From Thermoproteota archaeon (lineage in GTDB: Archaea > Thermoproteota > Nitrososphaeria > Nitrososphaerales > Nitrosopumilaceae): DNA of 64,000 bases. This document shows positions 35,167-51,553 of the stretch, piece by piece. Position 1 is the first letter of the stretch. Each line of letters starts with the position of its first letter. Location: positions 124,001-188,000 of the forward strand of contig QQVN01000002.1 in the NCBI GenBank assembly GCA_003352285.1. The letters are read 5' to 3'. The position numbers and the translations under genes are program-made. The notes under the pieces were generated by a model. The model did not search any database. It worked only from the letters and a program-made list of their open reading frames with translations, and was not told the DNA's origin.

Positions 35167-35167
35167 T

Positions 35168-35977: not shown

Positions 35978-36085
35978 TGTGTGTATTCACCTATGACAAA
36001 TTTGCTGTATTTATGTAGGATCATTTTGTTTAATCGTAAAATTTCCATATAGATTCAATTGTGTAAAATAATTTGAGCTCTTGTC

Positions 36086-36108
36086 TGTATGGACTAAACG
36101 AACATCTG
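36086..36108. promoter_or_regulatory. Motility-type operator site between trmB-like gene and archaellin 1
   Basis: TGTATGGAC-TAAAC-GAACATCTG fits the inverted repeat but has no TATA box at the usual distance. It could be a second upstream site for archaellin 1 or an autoregulatory site for the divergent regulator. Confidence 0.45.
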
Positions 36109-36165
36109 ACTTTGTGATTTTTTTCCTTTTTCTAATCAATTATTTTTTGTACAACCAGAAAACTT

Positions 36166-36357
36166 TGTCAATGTCCGATCATCTCGAACACACTCTAGGA
36201 TATACCCTGATACCATCAATACATTTCAATGAACCTTATTAGAAAAGGACACGGACACACCCACAGAGGAGTCATTGGTGTAGAGTCTGCAATAGTTATG
36301 ATTGCATTTGTAATTGTAGCAGCAGCTTTGGCCTTTGTAGTTCTCAACATGGGTTTC
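36166..36357. repeat. Archaellin promoter/5' coding block, copy 1
   Basis: 192 bp identical to 37020-37211. 36171-36357 is also identical to 39495-39681. The coding part from TTAGAAAAGG onward is identical in archaellin 3 as well. Confidence 0.95.
36172..36194 (+). promoter_or_regulatory. Motility operator, archaellin 1 promoter
   Basis: TGTCCGATC-ATCTC-GAACACACT followed by CTAGGATATAC; the TATA element GGATATAC begins four bases after the repeat, and the ATG is 35 bp after it. Confidence 0.65.
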
Positions 36358-36924
36358 GCTACAACACAAAAAGCAAAAACATCTATCATCTCAGGTCTAG
36401 GTGAAGCTTCAAGCAGCTTAGAAATTTCAGGTAAAGTAACTGGAATTGGTAATGTTGGTGATGCAAGATTAGATGTAGTTTCTATTCCACTAAAAATCGC
36501 TAGTGGTGGTAACGCAGTAAACTTGCAAAACACAACTGCTAGTGTTAAGTATCTTAGTAACACTGTTGAATATGATAACATACTAGTAGGTACGGCAAGC
36601 ACATCAACTAATGCAATCAATGTTACCGAAGGATGGGAACTTGCAAACAGACATTTCAATGTAGTTGATGTACCAGCAAATCCAGTAAATGGAACTTGGA
36701 CAGGTGGTACCAAAGCAATTTTCTATTGGACTGTTGGAGCAGGTAACCAAATCTTAGATGAGGGAGAACATGCTGTACTATCAATTGCATTTGATCAATC
36801 CCCAGAGGAAAGACCAGCGGCATTAGATAGAATTAGAGCAGAAATTCTCTTACCAACCGGATCACCTCTAACAATTGAAAGAGACGTTCCTAACATTACT
36901 AACACTGTTGTAGATCTAGGATAG
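36229..36924 (+). CDS. arlB: Archaellin 1
   Basis: A 231-residue archaellin (formerly FlaB). It has a class III signal peptide MNLIRKGHGHTHRG, probably cut after G14 by an archaellin peptidase, then VIGVESAIVMIAFVIVAAAL with the conserved G at +3 and E at +5, the helix that packs in the filament core. The rest is the beta-sandwich outer domain. The signal is unusually rich in His. Its 5' region and first 128 coding bases are identical to those of copies 2 and 4. Strong promoter with the operator described above. Confidence 0.93.
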   Translation: MNLIRKGHGHTHRGVIGVESAIVMIAFVIVAAALAFVVLNMGFATTQKAKTSIISGLGEASSSLEISGKVTGIGNVGDARLDVVSIPLKIASGGNAVNLQNTTASVKYLSNTVEYDNILVGTASTSTNAINVTEGWELANRHFNVVDVPANPVNGTWTGGTKAIFYWTVGAGNQILDEGEHAVLSIAFDQSPEERPAALDRIRAEILLPTGSPLTIERDVPNITNTVVDLG

Positions 36925-36930
36925 AAAACC

Positions 36931-36968
36931 GTGATTATGTAAATAATCACAAAATACTATCTTTTTTA
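36931..36968 (+). terminator. Hairpin terminator after archaellin 1
   Basis: A perfect stem GTGATTAT-GTAA-ATAATCAC followed by a T-rich stretch, so archaellin 1 is probably made from its own transcript. Confidence 0.65.
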
Positions 36969-37019
36969 TTTATTCCAAATTCTAAATATTTTCATAATAT
37001 TTGTTGTAAGGGTGTGGAA

Positions 37020-37211
37020 TGTCAATGTCCGATCATCTCGAACACACTCTAGGATATACCCTGATACCATCAATACATTTCAATGAACCTTATTAGAAAA
37101 GGACACGGACACACCCACAGAGGAGTCATTGGTGTAGAGTCTGCAATAGTTATGATTGCATTTGTAATTGTAGCAGCAGCTTTGGCCTTTGTAGTTCTCA
37201 ACATGGGTTTC
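37020..37211. repeat. Archaellin promoter/5' coding block, copy 2
   Basis: 192 bp identical to 36166-36357, covering operator, TATA box, start codon and signal-peptide codons. Confidence 0.95.
37026..37048 (+). promoter_or_regulatory. Motility operator, archaellin 2 promoter
   Basis: Identical to the archaellin 1 site, with the same TATA position and 35 bp to the ATG at 37083. Confidence 0.65.
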
Positions 37212-37805
37212 TCTACAACACAAAAAGCAAAAACCACAATTATCTCTGGTTTGAGTGAAGCATCTAGCAGCTTAGAAGTTGCAGGTAAAGTAATGGGAAT
37301 AGCTTGTACAACCGCCGCAAAAGGATGTTCAACACCTTATCTTAATGCAACAGGAATTCCACTTAGAATCGCTTCTGGTGGTGATGCAGTAAACCTTGAG
37401 GAGTCTTATACTCAAGTAAAATATCTTAGTAACTCAATTGAGTATGATGATATTTACATTGGTGCAGTCACTACTGCCACTGCTTCTAGTCTAGAAGGTG
37501 GATTTGATGCTGGAATAACAGCATTTTCAGAACTTGGTACTGCAGATAACCCAGTTGATCAAGCATTGACATCTGGAACTTATGCATTCACATATTGGAG
37601 TGTATCTAGAGGAACTCAAAATGCAATCCTAGATGAAGGAGAACACGCAATTTTGGCAATTGGATTTGACAGTAATGCTACCCCAGAAGAAAGACCAACT
37701 GCACTTGATAAAATGAGAGTAGAAGTTATTCTTGCAACTGGTGCATCACTAACTGTTGAAAGAGATATTCCAACATTGACACACCTAGTAACTGATCTTG
37801 GATAG
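37083..37805 (+). CDS. arlB: Archaellin 2
   Basis: A 240-residue archaellin with the same class III signal peptide and core helix as copy 1. The outer domain differs: a CTTAAKGCS segment brings two cysteines (about residues 76 and 82). Conserved archaellin stretches are YLSNSIEYDDIYIG, AILDEGEHAILAIGFD and the ending DIPTLTHLVTDLG. It has its own operator, promoter and terminator. The variable outer domain is where filament surface properties would differ. Confidence 0.92.
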   Translation: MNLIRKGHGHTHRGVIGVESAIVMIAFVIVAAALAFVVLNMGFSTTQKAKTTIISGLSEASSSLEVAGKVMGIACTTAAKGCSTPYLNATGIPLRIASGGDAVNLEESYTQVKYLSNSIEYDDIYIGAVTTATASSLEGGFDAGITAFSELGTADNPVDQALTSGTYAFTYWSVSRGTQNAILDEGEHAILAIGFDSNATPEERPTALDKMRVEVILATGASLTVERDIPTLTHLVTDLG

Positions 37806-37830
37806 GTAATTCAATTACCTTTTTTATTTT
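37805..37830 (+). terminator. Hairpin terminator after archaellin 2
   Basis: GGTAATTCAATTACC stem followed by a T tract; the stem begins at the stop codon. Confidence 0.6.
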
Positions 37831-37896
37831 ATTTTTAATTAGCTAGATAATACTATGGTTTTTTCATACCATTCATACTATACATTTTTTCAAAAA

Positions 37897-37919
37897 TGTC
37901 TGTTCAAGTAGCACATACA
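37897..37919 (+). promoter_or_regulatory. Motility operator, archaellin 3 promoter
   Basis: TGTCTGTTC-AAGTA-GCACATACA, diverged from the other archaellin copies yet with the same spacing to GGATATAC and 35 bp to the ATG. This divergence with fixed spacing argues for a functional site. Confidence 0.65.
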
Positions 37920-37953
37920 ATAGGATATACTCATACTAGATAATTATATTTCA

Positions 37954-38637
37954 ATGAAACTTGTTAGAAAAGGACACGGACACACCCACAGAGGAGTCAT
38001 TGGTGTAGAGTCTGCAATAGTTATGATTGCATTTGTAATTGTAGCAGCAGCTTTGGCCTTTGTAGTTCTCAACATGGGTTTCTCAACTACTCAAAGAGCA
38101 AAGACTGCAATTATTGCAAGTCTTGAAGAAGCATCTAGCAGCTTAGAAATTGCAGGTAAAGTTACTGGTTCTGGAGATGTAACAGCTTCATTGATGAATG
38201 TAACTGCAGTACCTCTAAAAATTGCTTCAGGTGGTGATTCTGTAAACATGAATCTACAATTAACAGCTGTAAAATATCTTAGTAATTCCATTGAATATGA
38301 TAATATCTACAATGGAACATTACAAACAGGAAGTTATGTTAATCTCACAAATGCAATGCAAACTGCTGTAACTCAAAGTTTTCTGCGAAGTAACCCTGTA
38401 AATGACACTGCGAATCCAGGACAAACAACTTCAATACTATATTGGGCTGTAAACAGAAATAATAATTTCATCATCGATCAAGGTGAACATGCTATTATGG
38501 CAATAGTCCATGGTGCTAATGAGAGACCAGGACCACTTGATACAATAAGAGCAGAGATTATTGTCCCAACAGGTGCTCCATTGACAATTGAGAGATTAGT
38601 ACCAAACGTCACACATGATGTTGTCGACCTTGGTTAG
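37954..38637 (+). CDS. arlB: Archaellin 3
   Basis: A 227-residue archaellin, the most diverged of the four: its signal starts MKLVRKGHGHTHRG and its promoter differs, although codons from TTAGAAAAGG to GGGTTTC are identical to the other copies. The outer domain has the usual YLSNSIEYDNIYNG, FIIDQGEHAIMAIV and ending VPNVTHDVVDLG. It has its own operator and is followed by a short GC-containing hairpin with a T tract. Confidence 0.92.
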   Translation: MKLVRKGHGHTHRGVIGVESAIVMIAFVIVAAALAFVVLNMGFSTTQRAKTAIIASLEEASSSLEIAGKVTGSGDVTASLMNVTAVPLKIASGGDSVNMNLQLTAVKYLSNSIEYDNIYNGTLQTGSYVNLTNAMQTAVTQSFLRSNPVNDTANPGQTTSILYWAVNRNNNFIIDQGEHAIMAIVHGANERPGPLDTIRAEIIVPTGAPLTIERLVPNVTHDVVDLG

Positions 38638-38655
38638 GAGCAACACTCCTTTTTC
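38637..38655 (+). terminator. Hairpin terminator after archaellin 3
   Basis: GGAG-CAACA-CTCC followed by TTTTTC. Confidence 0.55.
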
Positions 38656-38719
38656 TTACTTTTTCAAAATTTCAAACTGAACACAACTTTGTTTTTATTG
38701 TTAATCACTAAAGCTAATT

Positions 38720-39472
38720 ATGAATTCACATCTGAATGCCATTATTCTCAGTATTACTATCACTATGTTTCTTGGAATTATCTTCATTAGTATTAATTCT
38801 GAAAATAAAATGTTATCATACTCTGCAAATCATCAAGACAAAGATATAATGTTTGAGACCAATTATCATAAAAATTATGAGGAACTCAAGGCTAATGAAA
38901 ATATAGTCGTAATCTATCCAATTTTTACTCAAAGTGCCTATGAATGGGGTGGCATTCATGATTTTTACCAAGATAGATGTACTGAATGCACTAGTGTAGA
39001 AATTCAACCATTCTTTGAGAAGCGATACGCATCAAGCGGTACCGCGTTTTCTGTATTGGAATTTTTAGGCTATAATATAATTAATGATATTGATCTTGAT
39101 AAAACTCCAGACATTCTAAATCAATATGAAAAAGTGATCCTACTCCATAATGAGTATGTAACCGAAAATGAATTTAATGCAATAACTAGTCATCCAAATG
39201 TAATTTATCTATATCCAAATGCACTAAGCTCCCTGATTACTACTGATTATGAAACAAACACAATATCTCTTCAAAGAGGACCTGGTTTCCCTGATAGTGA
39301 CATCAAAAATGGATTTGATTGGGAATTTGATAATTCCCAATTTATGAGCGATTGGGACTGTATTGATTATCAATTTTATAAAATTGATAATGGATACATG
39401 TTGAGTTGCTATCCAGAAAAAATTCTTCAAAATAATGGAATTGAAATTCTAAAAAGAATTAAAGAACTATAG
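38720..39472 (+). CDS. Secreted or membrane-anchored protein inserted between archaellins
   Basis: A 250-residue protein with an N-terminal signal anchor (about 5-25, LNAIILSITITMFLGIIFIS). The exterior domain has alternating strands and helices (ENIVVIYPIFTQSAYEWGGI, YEKVILLHNEYVTENEFNAI, PNVIYLYPNAL), reminiscent of a glutamine-amidotransferase-like fold without a visible catalytic triad. Four cysteines may form two bridges (RCTEC; DWDCIDY and LSCYPEK). Its place between archaellins 3 and 4, same strand, suggests a role in filament formation or modification. A half-site GAACACAAC lies 33 bp before the ATG. Function unknown. Confidence 0.6.
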   Translation: MNSHLNAIILSITITMFLGIIFISINSENKMLSYSANHQDKDIMFETNYHKNYEELKANENIVVIYPIFTQSAYEWGGIHDFYQDRCTECTSVEIQPFFEKRYASSGTAFSVLEFLGYNIINDIDLDKTPDILNQYEKVILLHNEYVTENEFNAITSHPNVIYLYPNALSSLITTDYETNTISLQRGPGFPDSDIKNGFDWEFDNSQFMSDWDCIDYQFYKIDNGYMLSCYPEKILQNNGIEILKRIKEL

Positions 39473-39494
39473 GTTCAGAACTTCCAAATTTTTC

Positions 39495-39681
39495 ATGTCC
39501 GATCATCTCGAACACACTCTAGGATATACCCTGATACCATCAATACATTTCAATGAACCTTATTAGAAAAGGACACGGACACACCCACAGAGGAGTCATT
39601 GGTGTAGAGTCTGCAATAGTTATGATTGCATTTGTAATTGTAGCAGCAGCTTTGGCCTTTGTAGTTCTCAACATGGGTTTC
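39495..39681. repeat. Archaellin promoter/5' coding block, copy 4
   Basis: 187 bp identical to 36171-36357, although separated from copies 1-3 by an unrelated gene. Confidence 0.95.
39496..39518 (+). promoter_or_regulatory. Motility operator, archaellin 4 promoter
   Basis: Identical to the archaellin 1 site, with the same TATA position and 35 bp to the ATG at 39553. Confidence 0.65.
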
Positions 39682-40287
39682 TCCACAACACAAAAAGCCA
39701 AAACCACAATCATATCCAGTCTTGGTGAAGCATCTAGCAGCTTAGAAGTTGCAGGTAAAGTAATTGGATCAGGACATATTACTGATGCAAAACTAAACGT
39801 TACTGCAGTACCTCTAAAAATTGCTTCAGGTGGTGAATCAGTAAATCTGGCACCAGGAACTGCATCTGTAAAGTATCTTAGTAATTCCATCACATATGAT
39901 GATATTTACCAAGGTACCTTAACTGCAGCAGCAGACGGTGATGGCGATCCAAACGACAACGGTGAATGGTATCAATTACGTCAAGCAGTTGATGATGCTA
40001 CTGCCGCAGGTGGTGGACAAAACTATTGTACTAACGATCCATTTGACGCAGGTGGTGCAAACTTTCCAAATGAGACATGTGCATTCATCTATTGGACTGT
40101 AAACAGTAACAATAATGACATCTTAGATCAAGGTGAACATGCAGTATTAGCAATTGTATTTGCTGATGACGATAGACCATCTGCATTAGATACAATGAGA
40201 GCAGAAATCATCTTGCCAACTGGTGCATCATTGACCGTAGAACGACAAGTACCATCAATTACAACTTCAGTGGTGGATCTCGGATAG
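39553..40287 (+). CDS. arlB: Archaellin 4
   Basis: A 244-residue archaellin with the same signal peptide and core helix as copies 1 and 2. The outer domain has an acidic DGDGDPNDNGEW loop (about 120-131) that resembles a calcium-binding loop, and two cysteines (YCTNDPF and NETCAF). It ends VPSITTSVVDLG. It is followed 17 bases later by the arlCDE-like gene, with an attenuator-like hairpin between them. Confidence 0.92.
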   Translation: MNLIRKGHGHTHRGVIGVESAIVMIAFVIVAAALAFVVLNMGFSTTQKAKTTIISSLGEASSSLEVAGKVIGSGHITDAKLNVTAVPLKIASGGESVNLAPGTASVKYLSNSITYDDIYQGTLTAAADGDGDPNDNGEWYQLRQAVDDATAAGGGQNYCTNDPFDAGGANFPNETCAFIYWTVNSNNNDILDQGEHAVLAIVFADDDRPSALDTMRAEIILPTGASLTVERQVPSITTSVVDLG

Positions 40288-40293
40288 AAATAA

Positions 40294-40344
40294 GGAGTGA
40301 TAAAATGCACACTCCAAGCATTTCTTTTTCTTTTTCTTTTCTAA
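40294..40344 (+). promoter_or_regulatory. Hairpin plus T-rich tract over the start of the arlCDE-like gene
   Basis: GGAGTG (40294-40299) pairs with CACTCC (40310-40315). The stem includes the Shine-Dalgarno GGAG, and the ATG at 40305 lies in the loop. A T/C-rich tract (TTTCTTTTTCTTTTTC) follows inside the coding region. It could lower transcription and translation of the motor genes relative to archaellin. Confidence 0.5.
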
Positions 40345-41609
40345 ACAACCTAACGCAAAGTTTTAGAATTTTTCTTGTAACAAGTATAACAGGAACTTAT
40401 ACTCTAATTCTCTATGAGCTGTTTCCAGAATTTTTATTTAATCCAAATTATTCTCTGACATACTTTGTTGCACCCGTTGCAGCAATAGCCGGTGTACTGA
40501 TTGGATTACCAAAATTCATGAATCGTGGAGTGAAAACCGCTAAACCAAAGGCAAAAAAGACTGAGAACAAGTCAGGTGAGGACTTGCTTAATGAAATTAT
40601 TAGCGGAGACGATTCCGGTGAATCAACTCAACAAGGAGTACAGCAAGATTCTACAGGCGTGATGGCTGGAAACTCTGAAGGAGTTACACTAGAGCCTGCA
40701 TCAGTCGGTGGACCAAATGCTGAACTTGATGCCTTGTTAGGAGGTGGAGAATCAAATTCAAGTACTGTATCTGCAGATGTCGTTACCTCAGGCGGCTCTA
40801 TCTCTGGATTAAATGAAGATACCATTCGAGACATGATTGACCAAAAATTTGAGCCAGTCGAAAAGGATCTCTCTTCTTTCAAGAAAGACTTGAACAAAAT
40901 TAAGGAAGACATGAAGATTACAAAAGAAAACGTTGATAGCTTGACTGAATCCTTTGAGGGAACACTAACTGACATGAAGGCATTTCAGGCTGAAATTGCA
41001 AATCCGCTCAACTTTATGAGAAAATACTTTGAATCAATTGATCTCAAGAATTTATCCGACCCATCCTTGCCGTTACGACAACAAAACAGAGCACCAGAGC
41101 AAACAGTATCCCAAGCCCCCATACCACAGCCTGCATCTCAGGCACCTGTATCTGCACCACAGCCCGCTCCTGTATCTGCACCAGTACCAGAACCTGCACC
41201 ACAAACTTCCTCACAACCTCAACCAAAACCAAAGACAACTGAGATGGAGAGTATCGAAAAAGGAACAGACCTTGATAATCCAATGGACTCTGTCATGAAG
41301 CCACTATTTTCTGGCACTCTTAGCGTTAGCAATCTAATGTCAATAGTGGAGCTAGCAGGCGAGATGCTTAAAGAAAATGGTGATGACTGTATTGATCTAT
41401 TAATTGAGCAGTGCAAGCTTATGGGACTAAAAGACGAAGACGAAAATACAATTTACAATATAATTGACATGCTCAAAAAATCTGGAATGAATGTAGAGGA
41501 TACCCTAATTCAGCTATACAAGTTTGCCAAAATAGTTGGAATCAATGACAAACAGGCTGATGCTCATTACAAAAAATTACTAGAATCAAGAGACGAGGAG
41601 GATGAGTAA
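40305..41609 (+). CDS. ArlC/D/E-like archaellum protein with membrane anchor
   Basis: A 434-residue protein. It has two membrane helices (about 20-40 and 48-66). A coiled-coil region at about 160-250 (TIRDMIDQKFEPVEKDLSSF, KKDLNKIKEDMKITKENVDS) is of ArlC type. A Pro/Gln/Ala-rich linker spans about 265-312. The ArlD/E-like C-terminal domain covers about 314-434 (GTLSVSNLMSIVELAGEMLK, ENTIYNIIDMLKKSGMNVED). ArlC/D/E form the cytoplasmic ring around the motor and connect to chemotaxis proteins. Here they appear fused and membrane-tethered. The stop abuts the arlG ATG. Confidence 0.75.
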   Translation: MHTPSISFSFSFLNNLTQSFRIFLVTSITGTYTLILYELFPEFLFNPNYSLTYFVAPVAAIAGVLIGLPKFMNRGVKTAKPKAKKTENKSGEDLLNEIISGDDSGESTQQGVQQDSTGVMAGNSEGVTLEPASVGGPNAELDALLGGGESNSSTVSADVVTSGGSISGLNEDTIRDMIDQKFEPVEKDLSSFKKDLNKIKEDMKITKENVDSLTESFEGTLTDMKAFQAEIANPLNFMRKYFESIDLKNLSDPSLPLRQQNRAPEQTVSQAPIPQPASQAPVSAPQPAPVSAPVPEPAPQTSSQPQPKPKTTEMESIEKGTDLDNPMDSVMKPLFSGTLSVSNLMSIVELAGEMLKENGDDCIDLLIEQCKLMGLKDEDENTIYNIIDMLKKSGMNVEDTLIQLYKFAKIVGINDKQADAHYKKLLESRDEEDE

Positions 41610-42089
41610 ATGGCATCAGGACTAATTGGTGAGGCAATTCTAATTATCGCATCAGTTATTGTTGCAGGCTCTGTAGCTGGAGTTGTCCTATCGCAGATTG
41701 GTGTCTTTGAATCATCTATTACCCAAACATCTGAGGATCAAAAAGACAAACTCTTGACAAAAATAAAGATAATCTATGTTGCAAACTCTACAGATAATGA
41801 TGCCGAAGTCTGGGTGAAAAACATTGGTAAAAACCCTATCACCAGCCTTGATAAAATTGATGTCTACTTTGGCCCAGTAAATGCAGTACAAAGATTTGCA
41901 TACACCGTTGGTGATGTTGATGAAACCTGGGAGATTAACGGTGGCATCCCAAGTCCGGCAGTTTGGCAACAAATGGACACCTTGGAGCTTCAACTAGATG
42001 AGGACAGCTTGGCAAAATCCACAACATATGAGGTGCGTGTAATTACTCCACAAGGTGTTTCTGATGAGTATATCTTTTCAATTCCTTAG
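41610..42089 (+). CDS. arlG: Archaellum stator protein ArlG
   Basis: A 159-residue protein with an N-terminal archaellin-like helix (about 4-30, GLIGEAILIIASVIVAGSVA) and a beta-sandwich domain (DAEVWVKNIGKNPITSLDKI, DVYFGPVNAV). ArlG forms filaments that cap with ArlF at the S-layer, acting as the stator. It follows the arlCDE-like gene directly, and arlF follows 15 bases later. Confidence 0.85.
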   Translation: MASGLIGEAILIIASVIVAGSVAGVVLSQIGVFESSITQTSEDQKDKLLTKIKIIYVANSTDNDAEVWVKNIGKNPITSLDKIDVYFGPVNAVQRFAYTVGDVDETWEINGGIPSPAVWQQMDTLELQLDEDSLAKSTTYEVRVITPQGVSDEYIFSIP

Positions 42090-42104
42090 TACCGTGGTGA
42101 TATC

Positions 42105-42620
42105 ATGGGACTAAGTAATGCATTATCAGGAGGAATAATCATGGTTGCATTAATCTCAGTATTGTTAACTGTTCCGGGAATAGTGGGAACAACTTCGATA
42201 GTTCAGGATGCTTCTACTGATATCTCTGAGATTGAGACTAAAATTTACCACACAGATATTGCGATATCTTCTCTAAGCTCCTCTTTGGGCTCTAATCTCG
42301 TTACATTTACAGTATCAAATACAGGAAATGAAAAACTGTGGGATTATGCAAATTTTGATCTATTCATAACATACAATGGAGCCACATCTGGACTAAAGAC
42401 TGAACAGCTTAGTTACTCTGGAACCTGCTCTGGAAATCCCTCTTCGGGAAACTGGTGTGTAAATTCTTTTACAAATGACTTGCTTGATCCAAGCATTCTC
42501 AATGAAGGTGAATCAATGAATTTGCGAAGTACTGTTTCTGAGAATGCAAACGCTGGACTTGTTGCAGTAATAATTTCTACTGACAATGGAGTCTCTACAT
42601 CAAAGTCTACTACAAACTAA
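42105..42620 (+). CDS. arlF: Archaellum stator protein ArlF
   Basis: A 171-residue protein with an N-terminal helix (about 8-30) and a beta-sandwich: NLVTFTVSNTGNEKLWDYAN, FDLFITYNGAT, DLLDPSILNEGESMNLRS and VAVIISTDNGVSTSKST. ArlF contacts the S-layer outside the membrane. Its stop is one base from the stop of the opposing giant paralogue, whose two ends match this protein in order. Confidence 0.85.
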   Translation: MGLSNALSGGIIMVALISVLLTVPGIVGTTSIVQDASTDISEIETKIYHTDIAISSLSSSLGSNLVTFTVSNTGNEKLWDYANFDLFITYNGATSGLKTEQLSYSGTCSGNPSSGNWCVNSFTNDLLDPSILNEGESMNLRSTVSENANAGLVAVIISTDNGVSTSKSTTN

Positions 42621-42621
42621 T

Positions 42622-45003
42622 CTATGGAATTGTTCTGGTACCATTAACTGAATATCCGTTATCTGTTGTTAGAACAACTGTTATAGTTGAAGTCGGATAA
42701 ATCGGATACTGTGTTCTGCTACACACATGAATTGACTCACCAGGATTCCAAATGTTCGGATCCAAATAGTCTGAAGTAACGTTTCCAATCATCCATTGGT
42801 TAACTCCAAGTGAATCATCTCCATTACATGATAAAACATTAGTATACTCTACGTGTGGAAATTCTGTCACTTGAATACTAATTTCATTTGGTCTATTAGA
42901 GTCTGATTGCCAAAACTCTACAGTTGATGAACTGTTTAACCTTGCAGCTAAGAATGATCTAGGATAATTTTCATCACAATTTTCTGTTTGTACTGAAAAA
43001 CCTGTTAATGCAGCTTCTGACATTCCATCTCTTAGTGAAGTTATTCCAACCTCCCAATTGTCTTCTTCATCTCCTCCACTTGGATGCTGAACTGGTGAGT
43101 AATGATTTACAATCATTTTATCATCTGCATCTGTCTGTAAGTTGGAAATAATCCATGTTACTGCATTCATTGCAGGATTTGTCCATGCACTATTTCCTGA
43201 ATCAAATGTAATGGTATGAGTTAATTCTGTAGGTGAAGTTATCTCTACTTCTGCACCTGATGCACATACTTTTCTATAATCATTTGAAGAATCGCTGTTT
43301 CTTTGTTGGGTATGGAAAAATGCCTGGCTAATATCATTTACAGAAGAAATTGATACTTCCTGTGATTGATCTGCTGATGCATCAGTGTATTCATGATCAA
43401 TTCTTTGTACATTCCAATACGCTCCACTCCATTCTAGTACAGCATAGCTAACATCGCATGCATCTGGCCCATCATCATTTCCTACTCCTCCTCTTCTAAA
43501 TATGGGACGATCATTTTCTGAATCCCACTCTGAAGTAACTAAACATGATTCAATGTCTTTATTACTTGTATTTGGATTTGCTTGCCCTGTGATAAATACA
43601 GAAACATCATCATCATCTGTAACTCCTGCGATAGGTGTTCCGGGATGAGGGTTTATCGCAACAGAGCTTATTGCCCAAGGTTGTGAGCCACCAGCGTTGG
43701 TCCAACTCATTGTTTTTACTCCTGTTGCTATCGTCTCCTGAGTGCTCCCTCCTCCTCGAAGACTTCCTTGACTGTCATTCCATCTTACATCTTGGACTGA
43801 GCTTGCTGAAATTGGTCCCGTCTGTGTAGATACTACATCCAAAACCCAAGTTCTCTCATTTGTTGTAGTTAATGAAACATTTGGATTATTGGAAGTACCT
43901 GTGGCACCATTGTGTACATCCACTGGGGAAGTTGTATCAACATCAAAAAATGATATTGCACCCATCACAGCAGTTGTCAGCAAATCAGTATTTACCTGAA
44001 CAGTAGCTGAACCCGGTGTGGGATTTTCCAAATACCACAATGATGTATTTGCTGATGCACCATTGTCATCTGATCTAATTTCTGTCATTCCAGTTCCACC
44101 ATATGTTACTGAGGATACGCCAGCACCAGGAGTTGAAACTCCAACGACTAGCAACCTATTAGGTCCTGAACCTACTGTATGACTAAACGTACAGATTGTA
44201 AGAGTACATGTTCCCTTGGCTGTGGTAATTCTATCGATTCTAATTCCACCGCCACAGGTATAATCATAAGTGCCGGTTCCAAATGTGCAAATTCCAGTAT
44301 CCAATACTTTCATCTCATTTACTCCACTTGCAGTTCCAATATACTCCCAAATCTCCCAAGATGTTCTGGTATTGTCAGCTGCTGTACTGTGACGAGTAAA
44401 GTTTATGTCATCACCAGCATTTCTCAAACCTCCATCATAGCTGATAAACGTAGTAAAATCAAGCATATCTTGTGAACCTCCACCACTAGTTGGTCCAATA
44501 CCTGAATGCCTCGATGTAACCTGCTTTACGAAGCAATCTCCAGTACACATATCAAAATCAACACCCTCAACTAGTGTAGCATTGATTGCACCTGCGGCTA
44601 TTACTGCAGTTCCTCTCTGAATCTTGAACTCTCCTCTATCTACACTTTCAACAGATGTACCAGAAAAGCCTGCAGTGTTGTAATCGAAGATCTCAGTAAG
44701 GCGAGTCTTTGTTCCTGCAACGTTTCCATCATATGTAATAGCTAAATGAAAATCATCAAAATCCCAAAATTTTTCATGTCCGTTGTTATTAATTGAAAAA
44801 TTTACAAATGAAACACCTGGCTGAACATGAATATTGTCTTTAAAGTTTAATGACGTTCTTGAAATCTTGTTCTCTATCTGATTCATCTGTTTTTTAGAAT
44901 CAGATGATTCATAGATGTTTTCAGAAATCATTGGATATGTAAGTATCATGACAAATATTGTAAGTGCACCAATTGCACCACCGATTGCTACTCCTAAGCC
45001 CAT
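42622..45003 (-). CDS. Giant ArlF paralogue with about 610-residue insertion
   Basis: A 793-residue exported protein. Residues 1-108 align with ArlF (MGLGVAIGGAIGALTIFVMI; VNFSINNNGHEKFWDFDDFH; LAITYDG). Residues about 718-793 align with the rest of ArlF (SDYLDPNIWNPGESIHVCS; ITVVLTTDNGYSVNGT). The middle, about 109-717, is beta-rich and Ser/Thr/Gly-rich. It includes a module with SHTVGSGPNRLLVVGVS, SSVTYGGTGMTEI and WAISSVAINP known from bacterial surface proteins, and several cysteines. It may be an adhesin mounted on an ArlF platform. It is transcribed against the arl genes and convergent with arlF. Confidence 0.8.
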   Translation of the reverse strand: MGLGVAIGGAIGALTIFVMILTYPMISENIYESSDSKKQMNQIENKISRTSLNFKDNIHVQPGVSFVNFSINNNGHEKFWDFDDFHLAITYDGNVAGTKTRLTEIFDYNTAGFSGTSVESVDRGEFKIQRGTAVIAAGAINATLVEGVDFDMCTGDCFVKQVTSRHSGIGPTSGGGSQDMLDFTTFISYDGGLRNAGDDINFTRHSTAADNTRTSWEIWEYIGTASGVNEMKVLDTGICTFGTGTYDYTCGGGIRIDRITTAKGTCTLTICTFSHTVGSGPNRLLVVGVSTPGAGVSSVTYGGTGMTEIRSDDNGASANTSLWYLENPTPGSATVQVNTDLLTTAVMGAISFFDVDTTSPVDVHNGATGTSNNPNVSLTTTNERTWVLDVVSTQTGPISASSVQDVRWNDSQGSLRGGGSTQETIATGVKTMSWTNAGGSQPWAISSVAINPHPGTPIAGVTDDDDVSVFITGQANPNTSNKDIESCLVTSEWDSENDRPIFRRGGVGNDDGPDACDVSYAVLEWSGAYWNVQRIDHEYTDASADQSQEVSISSVNDISQAFFHTQQRNSDSSNDYRKVCASGAEVEITSPTELTHTITFDSGNSAWTNPAMNAVTWIISNLQTDADDKMIVNHYSPVQHPSGGDEEDNWEVGITSLRDGMSEAALTGFSVQTENCDENYPRSFLAARLNSSSTVEFWQSDSNRPNEISIQVTEFPHVEYTNVLSCNGDDSLGVNQWMIGNVTSDYLDPNIWNPGESIHVCSRTQYPIYPTSTITVVLTTDNGYSVNGTRTIP

Positions 45004-45090
45004 TTGATATCATTATACCTTGAATTAACAAATCAAATCACATCGCCTGTCCGAATCGTACAAGCTTAGAATGATACAACACTAAAGATT

Positions 45091-45113
45091 CGTTCAAAAA
45101 AGCCAAACAGTAT
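45091..45113 (+). promoter_or_regulatory. Weak motility-type site before arlH
   Basis: CGTTCAAAA-AAGCC-AAACAGTAT, then CTTATATC as TATA box. Only the right half fits well. A GTG at 45144 is about 27 bases after the TATA centre. Confidence 0.3.
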
Positions 45114-45143
45114 CTTATATCGATTTTCCCACTCAATCCTATT

Positions 45144-45206
45144 GTGATAGTAATGGATCTAGATTGTATAATTTGTAATTTAAAGAATGGATGTGACGAT
45201 ACATGA
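45144..45206 (+). CDS. Possible leader ORF overlapping arlH (20 residues)
   Basis: GTG 45144 (or ATG 45153) opens a short frame encoding MDLDCIICNLKNGCDDT as its last 17 residues. The stop overlaps the arlH ATG as ATGA. TATA-like TTATAT at 45115-45120 places the transcript start near the GTG. CxxC plus a third Cys is notable. Translation is unproven. Confidence 0.3.
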   Translation: MIVMDLDCIICNLKNGCDDT

Positions 45207-45904
45207 CGCAGATTATTCCATGTGGAAACGAAGAAGTAGACAGAGCCATAGGAGGCGGAGTACCATTTCCATGTTTGATGATACTTGAAGGTGGACATGG
45301 AACAGGAAAGAGTGCAATGACTGCACAATTCATGAAAGGAATACTGGATGCCAAAAAAAATGTTCTGTGCATCACAGAAAACACTGTCAAAGAATACATT
45401 GAAAACATGAAGTCTATTACATTTAATTTCTCAAATGCATTTTTACAAAACAGACTAACGATTCTTCCTCTTCACATGTATGGTGTAAAATGGACAAAGG
45501 AGCAATCTGCATTTCTATTGCCCGTTATAGGAAAATACATTGGAAACAGCTTTAAGGAAACAAACTGTGTTGTCATTGATTCACTAACTTTACTAACTGT
45601 CTTTGCAGATGCAAGTCAGATACTAGACTTTTTCACACAATGCAAGTATCTAGTTGCAAATGGAATGTCTGTTATTATCACAACTCATCCAGATGATATT
45701 CCAGCTGATATTGCACAAAGAGTCAAGGGAAGTGTTGACTGTTACTTGCAGCTAGGTTCAACAAACGTTGCAGGAAAGGACGTCAAGACGCTTAAAGTTA
45801 TCAAGCTAATAGGTTCAAAAGACGCATCAGAATCCGGTTTTGCCTTTGAGGTTGATATGACATTTGGAATAAAGATCGTACCAATCTCAATGGCAAACGC
45901 TTGA
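45203..45904 (+). CDS. arlH: Archaellum ATP-binding protein ArlH
   Basis: A 233-residue RecA/KaiC-like protein with Walker A GGHGTGKS (residues 30-37) and Walker B in NCVVIDSLTLLTVF (about 114-127). ArlH binds ATP without fast hydrolysis and regulates the ArlI motor within the ArlC/D/E ring. The operon arlH-I-J follows. The ATG overlaps the stop of a short upstream frame (ATGA). Confidence 0.93.
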   Translation: MTQIIPCGNEEVDRAIGGGVPFPCLMILEGGHGTGKSAMTAQFMKGILDAKKNVLCITENTVKEYIENMKSITFNFSNAFLQNRLTILPLHMYGVKWTKEQSAFLLPVIGKYIGNSFKETNCVVIDSLTLLTVFADASQILDFFTQCKYLVANGMSVIITTHPDDIPADIAQRVKGSVDCYLQLGSTNVAGKDVKTLKVIKLIGSKDASESGFAFEVDMTFGIKIVPISMANA

Positions 45905-45936
45905 GGTGTGCTTGCAAAATTATGGAGGACTAGGAG

Positions 45937-47610
45937 ATGGCATTTGATTTCTCTCAAGTTAAGGACAAAAATTTCTCTGAAGTTCTAAAAAAGACGCCAC
46001 ATCTTTTGGATTATATCGACAGCTACTCTGCTAGGGGAAACCCATTACCACTATTCACTGAGACACTAAAGCCTGAACACAAAAAGCTAAAAGAACCAAA
46101 CCTAATGTATCCAATATCAGAGCAGGCATTTATTCACATTAATCCACATACTACTTCAGATGATGGATATCTTGAGTATGTCATCATAGAGCCTCCACCA
46201 CCAGAAAGAAAACTAATGGAAATGGCAGACAAGCTGTTTGCAGTTCAGTCAGGCTCCTTGGATCCCCCAGTTGAGATTACAGAGCGATTCAACATGGTTG
46301 AAAACTATCTTGACAAGGCAGTATCTGTCCAAGATGGGCCAGTGGATTATGAAAAAGTAGGTGATGTTTACAAGCTAAAGACACTACCAGTTGAAAAGAG
46401 TAAATGGAACTCTCTAAAGTATCATTTTCTACAAAAACGTGCAGGTACTGGTCTTTTGGATCCATTCCTTTCTGATCCAAACCTTGAGGATATCTCAATT
46501 ATCGGTGCAGGAAACGTTTACGTCATTCACAAGTCCTTTGGAGCGTTAAAGTCACCACTATTCTTGGGTGTTGAAGAAATTGATGAGCTTATCATCAGCA
46601 TGTCAGAGCAATTTGGAAAGACTGTATCTCATGCAAAGCCTGTAGTAGACTCTGTGTTGCCTGATGGCTCCAGAATTAACATCGTGTTTGGAAAAGACAT
46701 CAGCAGAAAGGGAACAAACGCTACAATCAGAAAGTTTGCAAGTACACCACTATCAATCATCCAGGTACTTACATCAAAGGCACTTGACTTTAGAGAGGCA
46801 GCATACATGTGGATGATGCTCAGTGAAGGAATGAGTGTCTTTATCAACGGAGAAACTGCATCAGGTAAAACCACAACTCTGATGGCACTTACTGCATTTA
46901 TCCCATCAAACTGGAAAGTAGTAACAATTGAAGATACCCCCGAACTTACGCTACCACATTCTAACTGGATTACAGAAGCTACCCGTGACACTGGCAGTCC
47001 CTCATCCAGTGTGACAATGTTTGACTTGTTAAAGGCTGCCTTGAGACAGAGGCCTAACTATATCCTCGTCGGAGAAATTAGAGGTGCAGAAGGCAACATT
47101 GCGTTTCAAGCCATGCAGACAGGTCACCCTGTAATCAGTACATTCCACGCAGCAAACATGGTTGCACTAATTCAAAGACTTTCAAATGATCCAATTAACA
47201 TTCCAAAGACTCACATGGAGAACCTAAACATTGCACTGTTCCAAGGTGCAGTACAGGGACCAGGTGGCAAAAGAGTAAGACGTGTTCTATCAATTAATGA
47301 AATCCTGGGGTATAATCCCGATGGTGGAAACATCATGTTCATTCCTTCATTCTCATGGGATCCTGGAACAGATGAGGTAAAATTCAAGGGAAAAGGAAGC
47401 AGTGCACTATTCATATCTCATGTTTTGCACAAACGAGGAATGTCAAGAAAAGATGAGGGAAAACTTTACGATGAGCTAGAACTTCGAGCAAAAATTTTGG
47501 AAAGAATGATGGAAAAGAAGATCTTCAACTATTACGACGTCTTTGATTCTATTTCACACTGTAGAGAGATTGGACTTGAAGCATTCTACAAGGAGCTTGA
47601 CACTCTATAA
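45937..47610 (+). CDS. arlI: Archaellum motor ATPase ArlI
   Basis: A 557-residue type IV filament ATPase. Walker A is NGETASGKTTTLMAL (about 301-315); the Asp box is VVTIEDTPELTLPH, Walker B RPNYILVGEIRGAEG, and the His box QTGHPVISTFHA. The N-terminal domain (about 1-250) is typical of ArlI. It powers assembly and rotation of the archaellum. It lies 32 bases after arlH and overlaps arlJ by one base (TAATG). Confidence 0.95.
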   Translation: MAFDFSQVKDKNFSEVLKKTPHLLDYIDSYSARGNPLPLFTETLKPEHKKLKEPNLMYPISEQAFIHINPHTTSDDGYLEYVIIEPPPPERKLMEMADKLFAVQSGSLDPPVEITERFNMVENYLDKAVSVQDGPVDYEKVGDVYKLKTLPVEKSKWNSLKYHFLQKRAGTGLLDPFLSDPNLEDISIIGAGNVYVIHKSFGALKSPLFLGVEEIDELIISMSEQFGKTVSHAKPVVDSVLPDGSRINIVFGKDISRKGTNATIRKFASTPLSIIQVLTSKALDFREAAYMWMMLSEGMSVFINGETASGKTTTLMALTAFIPSNWKVVTIEDTPELTLPHSNWITEATRDTGSPSSSVTMFDLLKAALRQRPNYILVGEIRGAEGNIAFQAMQTGHPVISTFHAANMVALIQRLSNDPINIPKTHMENLNIALFQGAVQGPGGKRVRRVLSINEILGYNPDGGNIMFIPSFSWDPGTDEVKFKGKGSSALFISHVLHKRGMSRKDEGKLYDELELRAKILERMMEKKIFNYYDVFDSISHCREIGLEAFYKELDTL

Positions 47611-49109
47611 TGGAGCTAGCAAAATTTCCACTTTTTAACAAGCTAGCTACGGGTGGTGGCGCAGAAGCAATTGATGAAAAATTTGTCTATTTTATGGCGT
47701 TTTTGTACTCTATCTCAACTGGTGAAGTAGAGTCCGTAGACATGATAAAGACTGCATCAAAGAGTGGTTATGGAAAGTTCTCTCAAGCATTCATGGATAC
47801 GTTTCGACTTGGTGTAGGCTGGTCATACGGCTTATCAAAATCACTTGAGATGATTGCAAATAAAGTTGCACAAAATAATGAAATTCAACTAAAGCAAATC
47901 CTAGTCAAACTTGCACAGGTAGTAAGACTAGGTGATGATCTAAAGACATTCTTTCATGCTGAAGTAAAGTCAGCCATTATGAACTTTGAAATAATTTATG
48001 AACGAAAGCTAGAGACTCAGAAACTCTTCTTGGAGATGTTCTATACTTTAATGTCTACTGCAGCCTTTATGGTGTCTGCAAACTCTATCATGACAATGTT
48101 AATGGGCTCAAATGATGCCGAAGACATTCTGTTATCATCATTAATTGGAGTCTCTATCAGCATGACTGTCTTTGTATTTTTGATGTACATGATGTTCCCA
48201 AGGGACAAGCTTGCATATGCAACAGCAGATGATGATCTAAAGTTTCGGTTACGTGTATACATGATGGCAGGAATTGGTGCAGGAATTGGTGTTGTCTTGT
48301 TTATGATTCCTGATTTTCCTAACACTTTAGCAGTAGGCGTTGCAGTTGCACCACTAATAATTCCCGGATTAAAGGCAAAGAAGATGGAGGCCCAGATAAA
48401 GGAGCTAAACCAAGCCTATCCGGAATTTATCAGACACTTTGGAGAAATTTATGCTACAGTAGGTTCAATGGGTCAAGCACTTGATGCTGTACTACGAAGT
48501 GACTTTGGACCACTACAAAAACACGTAATCGGATTCAAGAACAGAGTCAAAAACAGAATTGATCAAAAGTTGGGCTTTGAGTTGTTATCTAGAGATGCGG
48601 GAAGCGAAATCATTGCCAATGGAAACCAAGTGATATCCACTGCAATGGATAAAGGTGGCGACATGAATGAGACAGGAAACGTTGTTGCAGATATCACACT
48701 AAAGATGAATGAGCTTCGTGCAAAGAGAGCCCAGACTGCTAAAACATTTGAGACAGTCGTAATCGTACTTCACATTTTGACACTTGCAGTATTTGGACTC
48801 ATGAACAAATTAACTGAGATATTCTTTGAGCTCATCAATACAGTTGATGTATCAAACAGCACATTCCAATTAACCCCAATTGATCCAGAATTTATGGCAG
48901 CAATGATGCCTGTGATGATTATCATGACATCTGTACTAAGTGCAGTTGCCATCAAAGTTGCACAAGGAGGATTGTACAAGACAGTATTTTACAACATTGC
49001 AATACTTGCAGTACTTGGTGCCATAGTATCATTTGTGATGAACTTTATGCTGGCTGACTTTCTTGAGACCCACATTCTTGACTTTGTGGATGAGACAGTC
49101 GTCCCGTAA
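47610..49109 (+). CDS. arlJ: Archaellum membrane platform protein ArlJ
   Basis: A 499-residue polytopic protein of the GspF/TadC class. Cytoplasmic helical domains (about 30-140 and 240-370) alternate with three membrane blocks: about 148-200, 215-255 and 385-490. Characteristic stretches are FRLGVGWSYGLSKSLEMIAN and EFIRHFGEIYATVGSMGQAL. It forms the membrane base on which ArlI acts. It is the last arl gene; the receptor-like genes follow 71 bases later. Confidence 0.93.
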   Translation: MELAKFPLFNKLATGGGAEAIDEKFVYFMAFLYSISTGEVESVDMIKTASKSGYGKFSQAFMDTFRLGVGWSYGLSKSLEMIANKVAQNNEIQLKQILVKLAQVVRLGDDLKTFFHAEVKSAIMNFEIIYERKLETQKLFLEMFYTLMSTAAFMVSANSIMTMLMGSNDAEDILLSSLIGVSISMTVFVFLMYMMFPRDKLAYATADDDLKFRLRVYMMAGIGAGIGVVLFMIPDFPNTLAVGVAVAPLIIPGLKAKKMEAQIKELNQAYPEFIRHFGEIYATVGSMGQALDAVLRSDFGPLQKHVIGFKNRVKNRIDQKLGFELLSRDAGSEIIANGNQVISTAMDKGGDMNETGNVVADITLKMNELRAKRAQTAKTFETVVIVLHILTLAVFGLMNKLTEIFFELINTVDVSNSTFQLTPIDPEFMAAMMPVMIIMTSVLSAVAIKVAQGGLYKTVFYNIAILAVLGAIVSFVMNFMLADFLETHILDFVDETVVP

Positions 49110-49123
49110 GAGAATTCGTAATA

Positions 49124-49146
49124 TGATCGTATGATATGAACACCCA
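49124..49146 (+). promoter_or_regulatory. Weak motility-type site before soluble receptor 1
   Basis: TGATCGTAT-GATAT-GAACACCCA. The right half matches. The GTG start is exactly 35 bp after it, but no clear TATA box lies at the usual place. Confidence 0.35.
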
Positions 49147-49180
49147 CATGTACGAATAGTAATTTCTTTGTATAAAAAAC

Positions 49181-50314
49181 GTGGATTCTATACAGAAAAC
49201 TGCCACTGAGGAAAAAATTACCATAGACTCACTGGATGAGAATCTTGATGAGAGCTCAAATTCTGAAACAAAGAATACCTCACTTGATAGAGTTATTGAG
49301 ATTACAAAGCTGATGAGTCATGATACTGAAAAGGCACTTGACACAATAAACACCATAAACAAAAAAACAGAATTTTTAGCAATTAATGCATTAATTGAAG
49401 CAAGCAGAACAGGGGATGCTGGAAAAGGATTTCAAGTCGTTGCTGAATCAATTGATGTCTTAGCTACTAAAACAAAAGAGGCTGTAGAAAAGATGCGAAA
49501 GGAAACAATCTCAAAGATGAGTGAGCTTGGAAAAATTATTGAAGAGCAATCAGTAAACATTACAGGAAATAGATTAGCAGATCTTGCATTAACAAACATT
49601 GATCTAATTGATAGAAACCTCTATGAGAGAACAGCTGATATCAGATGGTGGGCAACAGATAACATCTTTGGAAAAGCATTGCTGAGTAAAACCAAAGAAT
49701 CCATTCAAGAAGCACAACATAGACTGGGTACCATTCTAAAATCCTATACTGTATACTATGATCTTGTTCTAGTTGATCTTGAAGGAAATGTTATTACAAA
49801 TGCTCAAGCAGACAAATTTGATATCTCAAATCAAAACTTTGCCTCAAAACAATGGTTTCAAACTGCTTTAAAGACTTCAAATGGTAGTGAATACGGATTC
49901 CAATCTGTTCATAGATCATCAACTAGTGGCTCACACACCATGACATTTTCCTGTAAGGTTCATGAAAATGGTGATCCAAACAGGCCAGCAATAGGTGTGT
50001 TGGCTGCCGTATTCAACTGGGATGGTTTGGCTCAGCGAATAGTAAATGAAACCCCAATTAACCAAGATGAAAAGGAAAAAACCCGTGTTTGTATAGTTGA
50101 TGAAAATGGCACAATTCTAGCAGATACCCAAAATCGAATCCTTGATAAATTTAGCATTCCTAAAATGAATGATTTATTCGCTAAAAAACAGGGATTCGTG
50201 AAAATATCCCAAAGGGGAAAAGAACAACTTGTGTGCCATGGTTTATCTCATGGATATGAGACGTATGCCTCTGGTTGGCATTCTGTAATAGTACAGGATA
50301 TATCAAATAACTAA
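49181..50314 (+). CDS. Soluble chemoreceptor-like protein 1 (signalling tip before Cache-like domain)
   Basis: A 377-residue protein without membrane helices. Residues about 36-110 form a short MCP signalling hairpin with the tip sequence INKKTEFLAINALIEASRTG, then DAGKGFQVVAESIDVLATKT. A helix [20 protein letters not shown] is followed by ERTADIRWWATD. Then comes a Cache-like sensor domain (about 140-375, with VYYDLVLVDLEGNVITNAQA, FSCKVHENG, GVLAAVFNWDGLA). The order, signalling before sensor, is opposite to ordinary receptors. It would sit in the cytoplasm and signal to CheA/CheW. The start is GTG. Confidence 0.78.
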   Translation: MDSIQKTATEEKITIDSLDENLDESSNSETKNTSLDRVIEITKLMSHDTEKALDTINTINKKTEFLAINALIEASRTGDAGKGFQVVAESIDVLATKTKEAVEKMRKETISKMSELGKIIEEQSVNITGNRLADLALTNIDLIDRNLYERTADIRWWATDNIFGKALLSKTKESIQEAQHRLGTILKSYTVYYDLVLVDLEGNVITNAQADKFDISNQNFASKQWFQTALKTSNGSEYGFQSVHRSSTSGSHTMTFSCKVHENGDPNRPAIGVLAAVFNWDGLAQRIVNETPINQDEKEKTRVCIVDENGTILADTQNRILDKFSIPKMNDLFAKKQGFVKISQRGKEQLVCHGLSHGYETYASGWHSVIVQDISNN

Positions 50315-50346
50315 TCAGAATTTAATCATATTTTATCAAATCAATC

Positions 50347-50369
50347 TGTTCATCATAAACGCACACAAG
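50347..50369 (+). promoter_or_regulatory. Weak motility-type site before soluble receptor 2
   Basis: TGTTCATCA-TAAAC-GCACACAAG. The GTG start is 30 bp after it. The fit is partial. Confidence 0.3.
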
Positions 50370-50398
50370 CAAATTACTTAATTTAGAATTAAAAAATT

Positions 50399-51466
50399 GT
50401 GCAAAAATCAGCATATGAAAACTCTAAGAATGTTACTTTGGAAAGCATATCCAAGCTTGTAAACACAATGTCAAGCGAGATGGATAATGCTATTAAAAAA
50501 ATTCAAGACATAAATGAAGAGACACACATTTTGGCACTTAATGCAGCAATTGAAGCAAGCAGTGCCGGTGATGCAGGAAAAGGATTCGGAGTTGTAGCAG
50601 AACACATGGGTGAGCTATCAAATGAAACTGCAAGAATTACAAAAAAAATGAATAACAACAGTCAAACAAATATTGTAGAGCTTGAAGAAATTCTTACAAC
50701 TCAGGCAGCTAGTGTAAGAGGCAATAGACTCGCAAATCTCGCGTTAACAAACATTGATCTAATTGATAGAAACCTCTATGAGAGAACAGCCGATGTTAGG
50801 TGGTGGGCTACAGAAAAAAGTGTAGTTAATGCACTAACTGATAAGACTCCTGAAGCAATAAATTTTGTATCAGGACGACTAAATACAATTTTAAAGTATT
50901 ATTCTATTTATCATGACTTAATTCTAGCAGATGCAGATGGAAACATTATCGCAAATGGAAATCCCCAGTTTAATCTAAAGGGACGAAATATTTCTGAAAG
51001 GCCTTGGTATCAAAGTGCTTTAAAGACCAAAAATGGGGATGAATTTGGCTTTGAATCTGTTCATAACTCGCCTCCAATAAACAATCAAAATATTATTACA
51101 TTCTCTTGTAAAGTTCACTCAAATGGAGATACCAACCAACCATTCATTGGAGTTCTGGGAACTGTCTTTAACTGGACAGGGCTGGCTCAAAAAATTGTCA
51201 ATGATACGACAATCAATGAAGATGATAAACCACGTACACGTGTGTGTATAGTCAATAAGGAAGGAAAAGTTTATGCTGATACTCAAAATAAAATTCTTGA
51301 AGATCAAATACAATTTGATGGAATAGACGAAGTCTTTAAGATGAAAAAAAATTTTATCACTAAAAAAATTGATGGTAAAACATTCTGCATAGGTCATGCC
51401 ATCTCTCCTGGATTTGAAGGATACTCAACAGGCTGGCATTCTTTAATTATTCAAGAGATTGCTTAA
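50399..51466 (+). CDS. Soluble chemoreceptor-like protein 2 (signalling tip before Cache-like domain)
   Basis: A 355-residue paralogue of the preceding gene with the same order of parts. The signalling tip [20 protein letters not shown], then [20 protein letters not shown], is at about 42-82. The helix [20 protein letters not shown] and [11 protein letters not shown] are nearly identical to paralogue 1. The Cache-like domain covers about 125-353 ([39 protein letters not shown]). The tip is closer to canonical MCPs than in paralogue 1. No membrane helix. The start is GTG. Confidence 0.78.
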
Positions 51467-51472
51467 AGTAGT

Positions 51473-51489
51473 AAATTAATAATTTTTTT
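51473..51489 (+). terminator. Weak terminator after soluble receptor 2
   Basis: AAATT-AAT-AATTT followed by T residues. Confidence 0.35.
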
Positions 51490-51494
51490 CAAAA

Positions 51495-51517
51495 TGTTTG
51501 TTCAATGCAAACATCTC
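51495..51517 (+). promoter_or_regulatory. Motility operator, MCP promoter
   Basis: TGTTTGTTC-AATGC-AAACATCTC, then TAGGGTTATT in the TATA position. TTG start 37 bp after the repeat. Confidence 0.55.
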
Positions 51518-51553
51518 TAGGGTTATTGGCACGCAAAAAAATCTAAAATTACG

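Follow-up and report, generated by a model that had tools for sequence, protein, structure and literature searches.

A giant ArlF paralogue with a nested insertion in the archaellum locus of an ammonia-oxidising archaeon

What does a gene of 793 codons encode when it lies, on the opposite strand, in the middle of an archaellum (arl) gene cluster? The cluster is found in the window analysed here, a 64,000-nucleotide stretch of a Nitrosopumilaceae genome (G000), where the run arlG-F / arlH-I-J is broken by this gene and by a divergent intergenic stretch. The gene product resembles its neighbor ArlF. The Sulfolobus ArlF retains its N-terminus, is required for motility, and binds both the S-layer and ArlG; its proposed role is to cap ArlG filaments across the pseudoperiplasm (PMC8667602). 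The literature searched describes ArlF solely as a small stator cap tying the archaellum to the S-layer. The features of the locus are as follows.

41610..42089, plus strand: arlG (PF01917), directly before arlF
42105..42620, plus strand: canonical arlF, 171 aa (PF22201, 31.7 bits)
42622..45003, minus strand: giant ArlF paralogue (ArlF2), 793 aa, an uninterrupted open reading frame with ArlF HMM and Pfam matches
45004..45202: intergenic stretch between the divergent giant gene and arlH; its sliding identity to the sister genome G022 is 96-99%, and it probably holds promoters for both directions
45203..45904, plus strand: arlH, KaiC-type ATPase (PF06745), 100% amino-acid identity to G022
45937-49109: arlI and arlJ, after arlH

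The giant gene is convergent with arlF, the two ends being 1 bp apart, and arlH starts on the other strand 199 bases past the giant's start codon. The open reading frame coordinates and strands thus agree with an earlier sequence-only reading, which had placed the gene against the arl operon and convergent with arlF. Its orientation may allow separate regulation. The canonical arlF product matches the solved FlaF structure 4p94 (E 1.5e-5). The NCBIfam ArlF equivalog NF052590 does not extend to this clade, because even the canonical ArlF reaches only 31.2 (E 2e-7) against a curated cut-off of 110; the giant had no match to that model.

A TPR-type repeat protein of 1422 aa (30898-35166) lies immediately upstream of the arl cluster. 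Four archaellin genes with near-identical 5' parts occupy 36229-40287. Over its first 274 bp, the second archaellin gene matches the fourth one of G022 at 95-97% identity, and the reverse pairing holds too, which suggests gene conversion among archaellins. Within this array, a 250-aa secreted-looking open reading frame (38720-39472), whose match to DMFA2_C is weak (E 1.2e-4, below the cut-off), is also kept in G022.

A profile HMM built from canonical ArlF sequences only (about 40 loci) matched the giant protein at both ends: residues 1-111 on HMM positions 1-107 (E 6.3e-25) and residues 721-791 on positions 99-170 (E 5.5e-11). The two matches are collinear and abut on the profile; a third match within the insert (E 0.5) is noise. 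Likewise, in a BLAST search of its own genome the giant matched arlF twice and in order, first through residues 1-101 (E 8.4e-12) and then through residues 725-789 (E 1.9e-5). Further evidence comes from the Pfam family PF22201 (FlaF_Ig-like). The whole protein scored 26.6 bits, under the 28.4 cut-off, and when the insert was cut out and the ends were joined, the score rose to 38.0 bits, above that cut-off, over profile positions 15-107 of 112. These results bear out the initial proposal that the two ends correspond in order to the neighboring 171-residue ArlF, and the insertion, put at about 610 residues in that proposal, measures ~609 aa (residues ~112-720). In other words, the 793-residue open reading frame is, as a well-supported conclusion from sequence comparison, an ArlF paralogue whose sandwich sequence is opened at one loop. 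Its parts are listed below.

44671..45003, minus strand: N-terminal ArlF half (residues 1-111, HMM 1-107), an unprocessed-type N-terminal hydrophobic helix and the first sandwich strands
44281..44631, minus strand: insert module A (residues 125-241), 31-55% identical to modules of giant surface proteins, in which C comes directly after it
43639..44265, minus strand: insert domain B (residues 247-455), between A and C; free-standing domains match most of its length at 33-35% identity
42853..43632, minus strand: insert module C (residues 458-717), related at 30-38% identity to giant surface proteins, in which it is contiguous with A
42625..42843, minus strand: C-terminal ArlF half (residues 721-793, HMM 99-170), the last sandwich strands

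The giant's N-terminus (MGLGVAIGGAIGALTIFVMIL, against MGLSNALSGGIIMVALISVLL in the canonical protein) has its short hydrophobic helix at the very start. By inspection, neither a charged archaellin leader nor a processing motif precedes this helix, in contrast to the class III signal peptide that marks modular pilins. The strand preceding the insert contains a tyrosine, Y91, that is invariant (10/10 sequences), and it aligns with the FlaF strand FSVIVQYY. That strand probably includes the ArlG contact described in PMC8667602, where residue numbering may differ.

Could the resemblance instead be due to chance or an assembly artefact, an unrelated adhesin having ends that happen to look like ArlF? 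The C-terminal single-sequence match, with 35% identity over about 65 residues, is indeed weak. However, the collinear and abutting profile matches and the gain in Pfam score on joining the ends make such an accident hardly credible, and other, independent genomes show the same architecture, among them Ca. Nitrosotenuis chungbukensis MY2 and, on a 140-kb RefSeq contig, Nitrosopumilus sp. b1.

Structure prediction agrees with this assignment in part. The AlphaFold model of the full protein has low overall confidence (pLDDT 58, pTM 0.50), and it depends on an alignment (A3) whose row sets were searched by script until most rows sat at their BLAST positions, a joint MAFFT alignment of the giant, adhesin modules, B domains, and ArlF having misplaced short rows. 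By block, pLDDT was 73-87 at residues 51-110 and 72-86 at residues 751-793. Helices were placed at 2-22 and 24-48, and B was unfolded from residue 354 on. In a Foldseek search of the PDB, the top match was the solved FlaF 4p94_B (E 7.6e-4, probability 1.00), and apart from FlaF nothing matched at E <= 0.001. The FlaF matches span 68-86 columns (4p94_A, 68 columns, rmsd 3.6), which is only part of the sandwich. Because a local structural alignment would need to span 600 residues to take in both ends, the predicted fold speaks for the N-terminal half, which it supports, and closure of one sandwich by both ends rests on the sequence matches. The prediction that both ends would form one ArlF-like sandwich is therefore consistent with the model, FlaF being its best PDB match, but is not decided by it.

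What does the insert consist of? The middle of the giant matched two giant open reading frames (2559 and 2959 codons) of its own genome. Surface proteins encoded here and in other genomes have A and C within about a dozen residues of each other (for example, at L051:11507-12658 and L050:4178-5275), whereas the 209-residue B separates them only in the giant ArlF. The architecture is thus ArlF [ A [ B ] C ] ArlF. The insert had been described as adhesin-like; it is related to modules of giant surface proteins, and the nesting is added here. B is also a free-standing domain of many other proteins; some of these begin with a Sec-type N-terminus, and two combine a pilin-like N-terminus with DUF2341-LamG. 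Proteins of the latter kind (L013 and L014, complement 1-2724), which carry DUF2341, a B domain, and LamG behind the pilin-like N-terminus, represent a parallel display design on another scaffold. Both B and A-C therefore occur on unrelated surface proteins, as expected for general-use domains grafted on a scaffold in the manner of modular pilins. No Pfam or NCBIfam family fits A, B, or C.

Split ArlF proteins are not confined to this genome. A search of 250 genomes of the family with a profile covering the N-terminal part of ArlF found the protein in 46, and 14 of these 46 carried a second copy (G000, G022, G133, G203, G128, G073, G091, G034, G081, G017, G105, G075, G087, and G049). None of the 204 genomes lacking canonical ArlF had one (Fisher p 8e-12, with shared ancestry ignored). 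At least 11 of the 14 extra copies carry inserts or fusions. The earlier reading had suggested looking for split paralogues in other archaellate ammonia oxidizers, and split or fused ones do occur there. An intact split ArlF2 of 357 residues occurs in six genomes (G081, G075, G034, G049, G017, and G105), and the long split form is found in G000 and G022. Fusions with LamG (G133) or PKD (G073 and G091) make up another type. The copies of G087 (357 type) and G128 (LamG type) are broken in the assembly, where they appear to be interrupted by a frameshift or an assembly error (L087:2093-3042 and L070:1044-2958, respectively). The extra copy of G203 is of ordinary length and lies on another contig, and that assembly may be mixed. 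G133, considered as a split sandwich, was rejected because its ArlF domain is whole and the LamG domains come after it.

All split copies are broken at the same place, profile positions 104-108. The cargo carried on the ArlF scaffold differs: A-C with B, the 357-type domain alone, the 357-type domain split by a seven-repeat propeller, DUF2341-LamG (twice), or PKD. In a tree, the 357, giant, and LamG types were set apart from canonical ArlF and the PKD type with moderate support (UFBoot 80). The giants grouped with the LamG type (UFBoot 81), and G022 branched with the LamG type (UFBoot 84) rather than with G000. Membership of the PKD-type paralogues in the ArlF2 clade is not backed by this tree; these proteins, seen in two genomes (L047:9378-10187 and L048:9150-9959), carry PKD at the C-terminus of the ArlF paralogue.

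Wider searches gave no further members. Among 398 sampled genomes of the phylum, no long ArlF was seen outside the family; a 301-aa open frame in G392 turned out to be an ordinary ArlF with an internal start. A scan of genome contigs with the whole giant as query gave no confirmed match, and viral contigs and phage records gave no match.

The position of the extra gene varies. In other loci where both genes were read, arlF and arlH are separated by -3 to 170 bp. A gene fills this gap only in G000 (2583), G022 (2425, attributed to Nitrosopumilus sp. b1), and G133 (3724, attributed to Nitrosopumilus sp. LS_AOA), so that three genomes from two genera use it. The G133 paralogue lies on the same strand, and after it comes a 126-aa ArlF fragment that ends identically to arlF. 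The ArlF2 genes of Nitrosotenuis-type genomes, among them a 357-residue member attributed to Ca. Nitrosotenuis chungbukensis MY2 (G081), lie outside the arl cluster. In three such genomes (L041:7917-10044, L042:8276-10459, and L046:9378-11317), the 357-aa gene neighbors a single archaellin gene, away from the main arl cluster.

A closer view of the locus comes from the sister genome G022, the only other genome of the genus compared, which is listed as 8% contaminated. Its locus lies on a 140-kb contig in full synteny, and at the same site it has an ArlF paralogue of 733 codons with different cargo. The insert is a 357-type domain opened after residue ~188 by about 400 residues, in which seven tryptophan-rich repeats are visible by eye, with periodicity near 50 and 101 residues. 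The low-confidence model of this protein (pLDDT 56, pTM 0.46) matched PLL/PHL and AFL propeller lectins (Foldseek E 2.4e-10, TM by target 0.65), fucose-binding PLL/PHL lectins being among its matches, whereas by sequence the propeller matched nothing in the PDB. Sugar binding by the predicted propeller is a lead only.

At the DNA level, G000 and G022 are 89% identical over 35115-42620 (the last base of arlF) and 95% identical over 44977-53000, and between 42620 and 44977 the giant genes do not align. Identity falls along arlF and has recovered to 97% inside the giant's first codons. As proteins, the ArlF ends of the two giants are 37% and 35% identical, compared with 98-100% for ArlG, ArlH, ArlI, and ArlJ. 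Among 15 genes, synonymous divergence peaks in arlF (1.57); the 14 others range from 0.16 to 0.83, most genes compared lying at 0.16-0.53 and the 250-aa open reading frame at 0.83. The simplest account is that a segment with arlF and the giant gene was exchanged in one lineage, a reading that rests on one comparison between two genomes of the genus. Very fast divergence in place is possible but, for synonymous sites, less likely. Since the gene was replaced while its flanks stayed 89-95% identical, selection for variety in what is bound is suggested, diversifying selection being inferred here from two genomes. A bolder proposal, possible but doubtful at present, is that the arlF-arlH gap is an allelic exchange site. 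It would house a display protein tied to the stator, with outer cargo that lineages swap as a whole while viruses, surfaces, or partners exert diversifying selection; the archaellum base would thereby be linked to a recognition arm that can change, and contact could be sensed through the load on the motor.

How might ArlF2 work? It is probably a membrane anchor of ArlF type that has been turned into a modular display platform, and the best reading by analogy is that it would be the stator counterpart of modular pilins. The wholesale difference in cargo at one locus between two closely related genomes points in this direction. The helix would anchor ArlF2 in the membrane and the sandwich would sit, like ArlF, in the space under the S-layer, with the inserted arm reaching through or past the S-layer to bind a surface, a polymer, or a partner cell. 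Less certainly, the sandwich at the base of the archaellum may still dock on ArlG or on the S-layer, in which case binding could tether or brake the motor. ArlF2 would then combine adhesion with motor contact. The unlinked Nitrosotenuis-type copies argue against a motor link as a general property of ArlF2.

The same observations have been weighed under two other explanations. ArlF2 could be an alternative stator cap that replaces or joins ArlF on the ArlG filament, the insert anchoring the stator to another envelope component, such as the giant A-C surface proteins, and not to the outside world. This would fit with the restriction of ArlF2 to genomes having canonical ArlF, its place between arlF and arlH in two genera, the inclusion of arlF in the swapped segment, and the homology of the A-C modules to the organism's own giant proteins. 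The invariant Y91 (10/10), aligned with the FlaF strand in which the residues contacting ArlG probably lie (PMC8667602, where numbering may differ), fits as well. However, the Nitrosotenuis-type paralogues lie off the arl cluster and no paralogue replaces ArlF, so an alternative cap seems unlikely. Those unlinked genes would be expected if ArlF2 were a surface protein with a borrowed ArlF membrane anchor, acting independently of the archaellum. The orientation opposite to arl, the fast divergence, and the presence of B on proteins with pilin-like N-termini and LamG in other genomes are also consistent with such independence, but strict co-occurrence with arlF and the repeated use of the arlF-arlH gap count against it, and we consider it rather improbable. 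A display platform built on the ArlF anchor is therefore preferred here.

If this is true, ammonia-oxidizing archaea have reused a stator protein as a scaffold for display on the cell surface, as bacteria did with pilins. ArlF2 would offer a concrete starting point for studying adhesion, contact sensing, or virus attachment in organisms with a little-known surface biology; a named relative, Ca. Nitrosotenuis chungbukensis MY2, has the simpler 357-residue form.

How does the giant ArlF compare with known systems? Grafted or inserted domains are known in type IV filament subunits; ArlF as the scaffold appears to be new in the literature searched, which contained no report of domain grafting or insertion in ArlF and outside which most subscription papers lie. 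ArlF itself (FlaF; 4p94/4zbh; PF22201) shares with the giant the N-terminal helix, the sandwich sequence, the position by arlG/arlF, and the best PDB fold match of the model. The giant differs in its 609-residue insertion in one loop and its opposite strand, and it is a paralogue, not a replacement. The giant surface proteins of the family (2559, 2959, and 4736 codons) have A-C modules 30-55% identical to those of the giant ArlF, but no ArlF part was found in them and no B lies between their A and C. The PLL/PHL and AFL propeller lectins resemble the cargo of the G022 gene only, as judged from its low-confidence model (E 2.4e-10), and that propeller has no sequence match in the PDB. A large extra domain within a pilin-type domain is known from ComZ of Thermus thermophilus and from GspK (PMC7248040). 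These are likewise insertions into a filament-family fold, but ComZ and GspK are pilus or pseudopilus tip subunits, whereas the giant is an ArlF with doubly nested inserts. The closest parallel in design is with modular minor pilins, such as PilB and PilC of Streptococcus sanguinis, in which adhesive domains are grafted on type IV filament subunits (PMC10191384). Both have a scaffold of the type IV filament family with grafted general-use adhesive domains, but in ArlF2 the scaffold is a stator-type ArlF and the cargo in most cases lies within the sandwich and is not appended to it. By analogy, the giant ArlF may work like a modular pilin, but is not classed as one.
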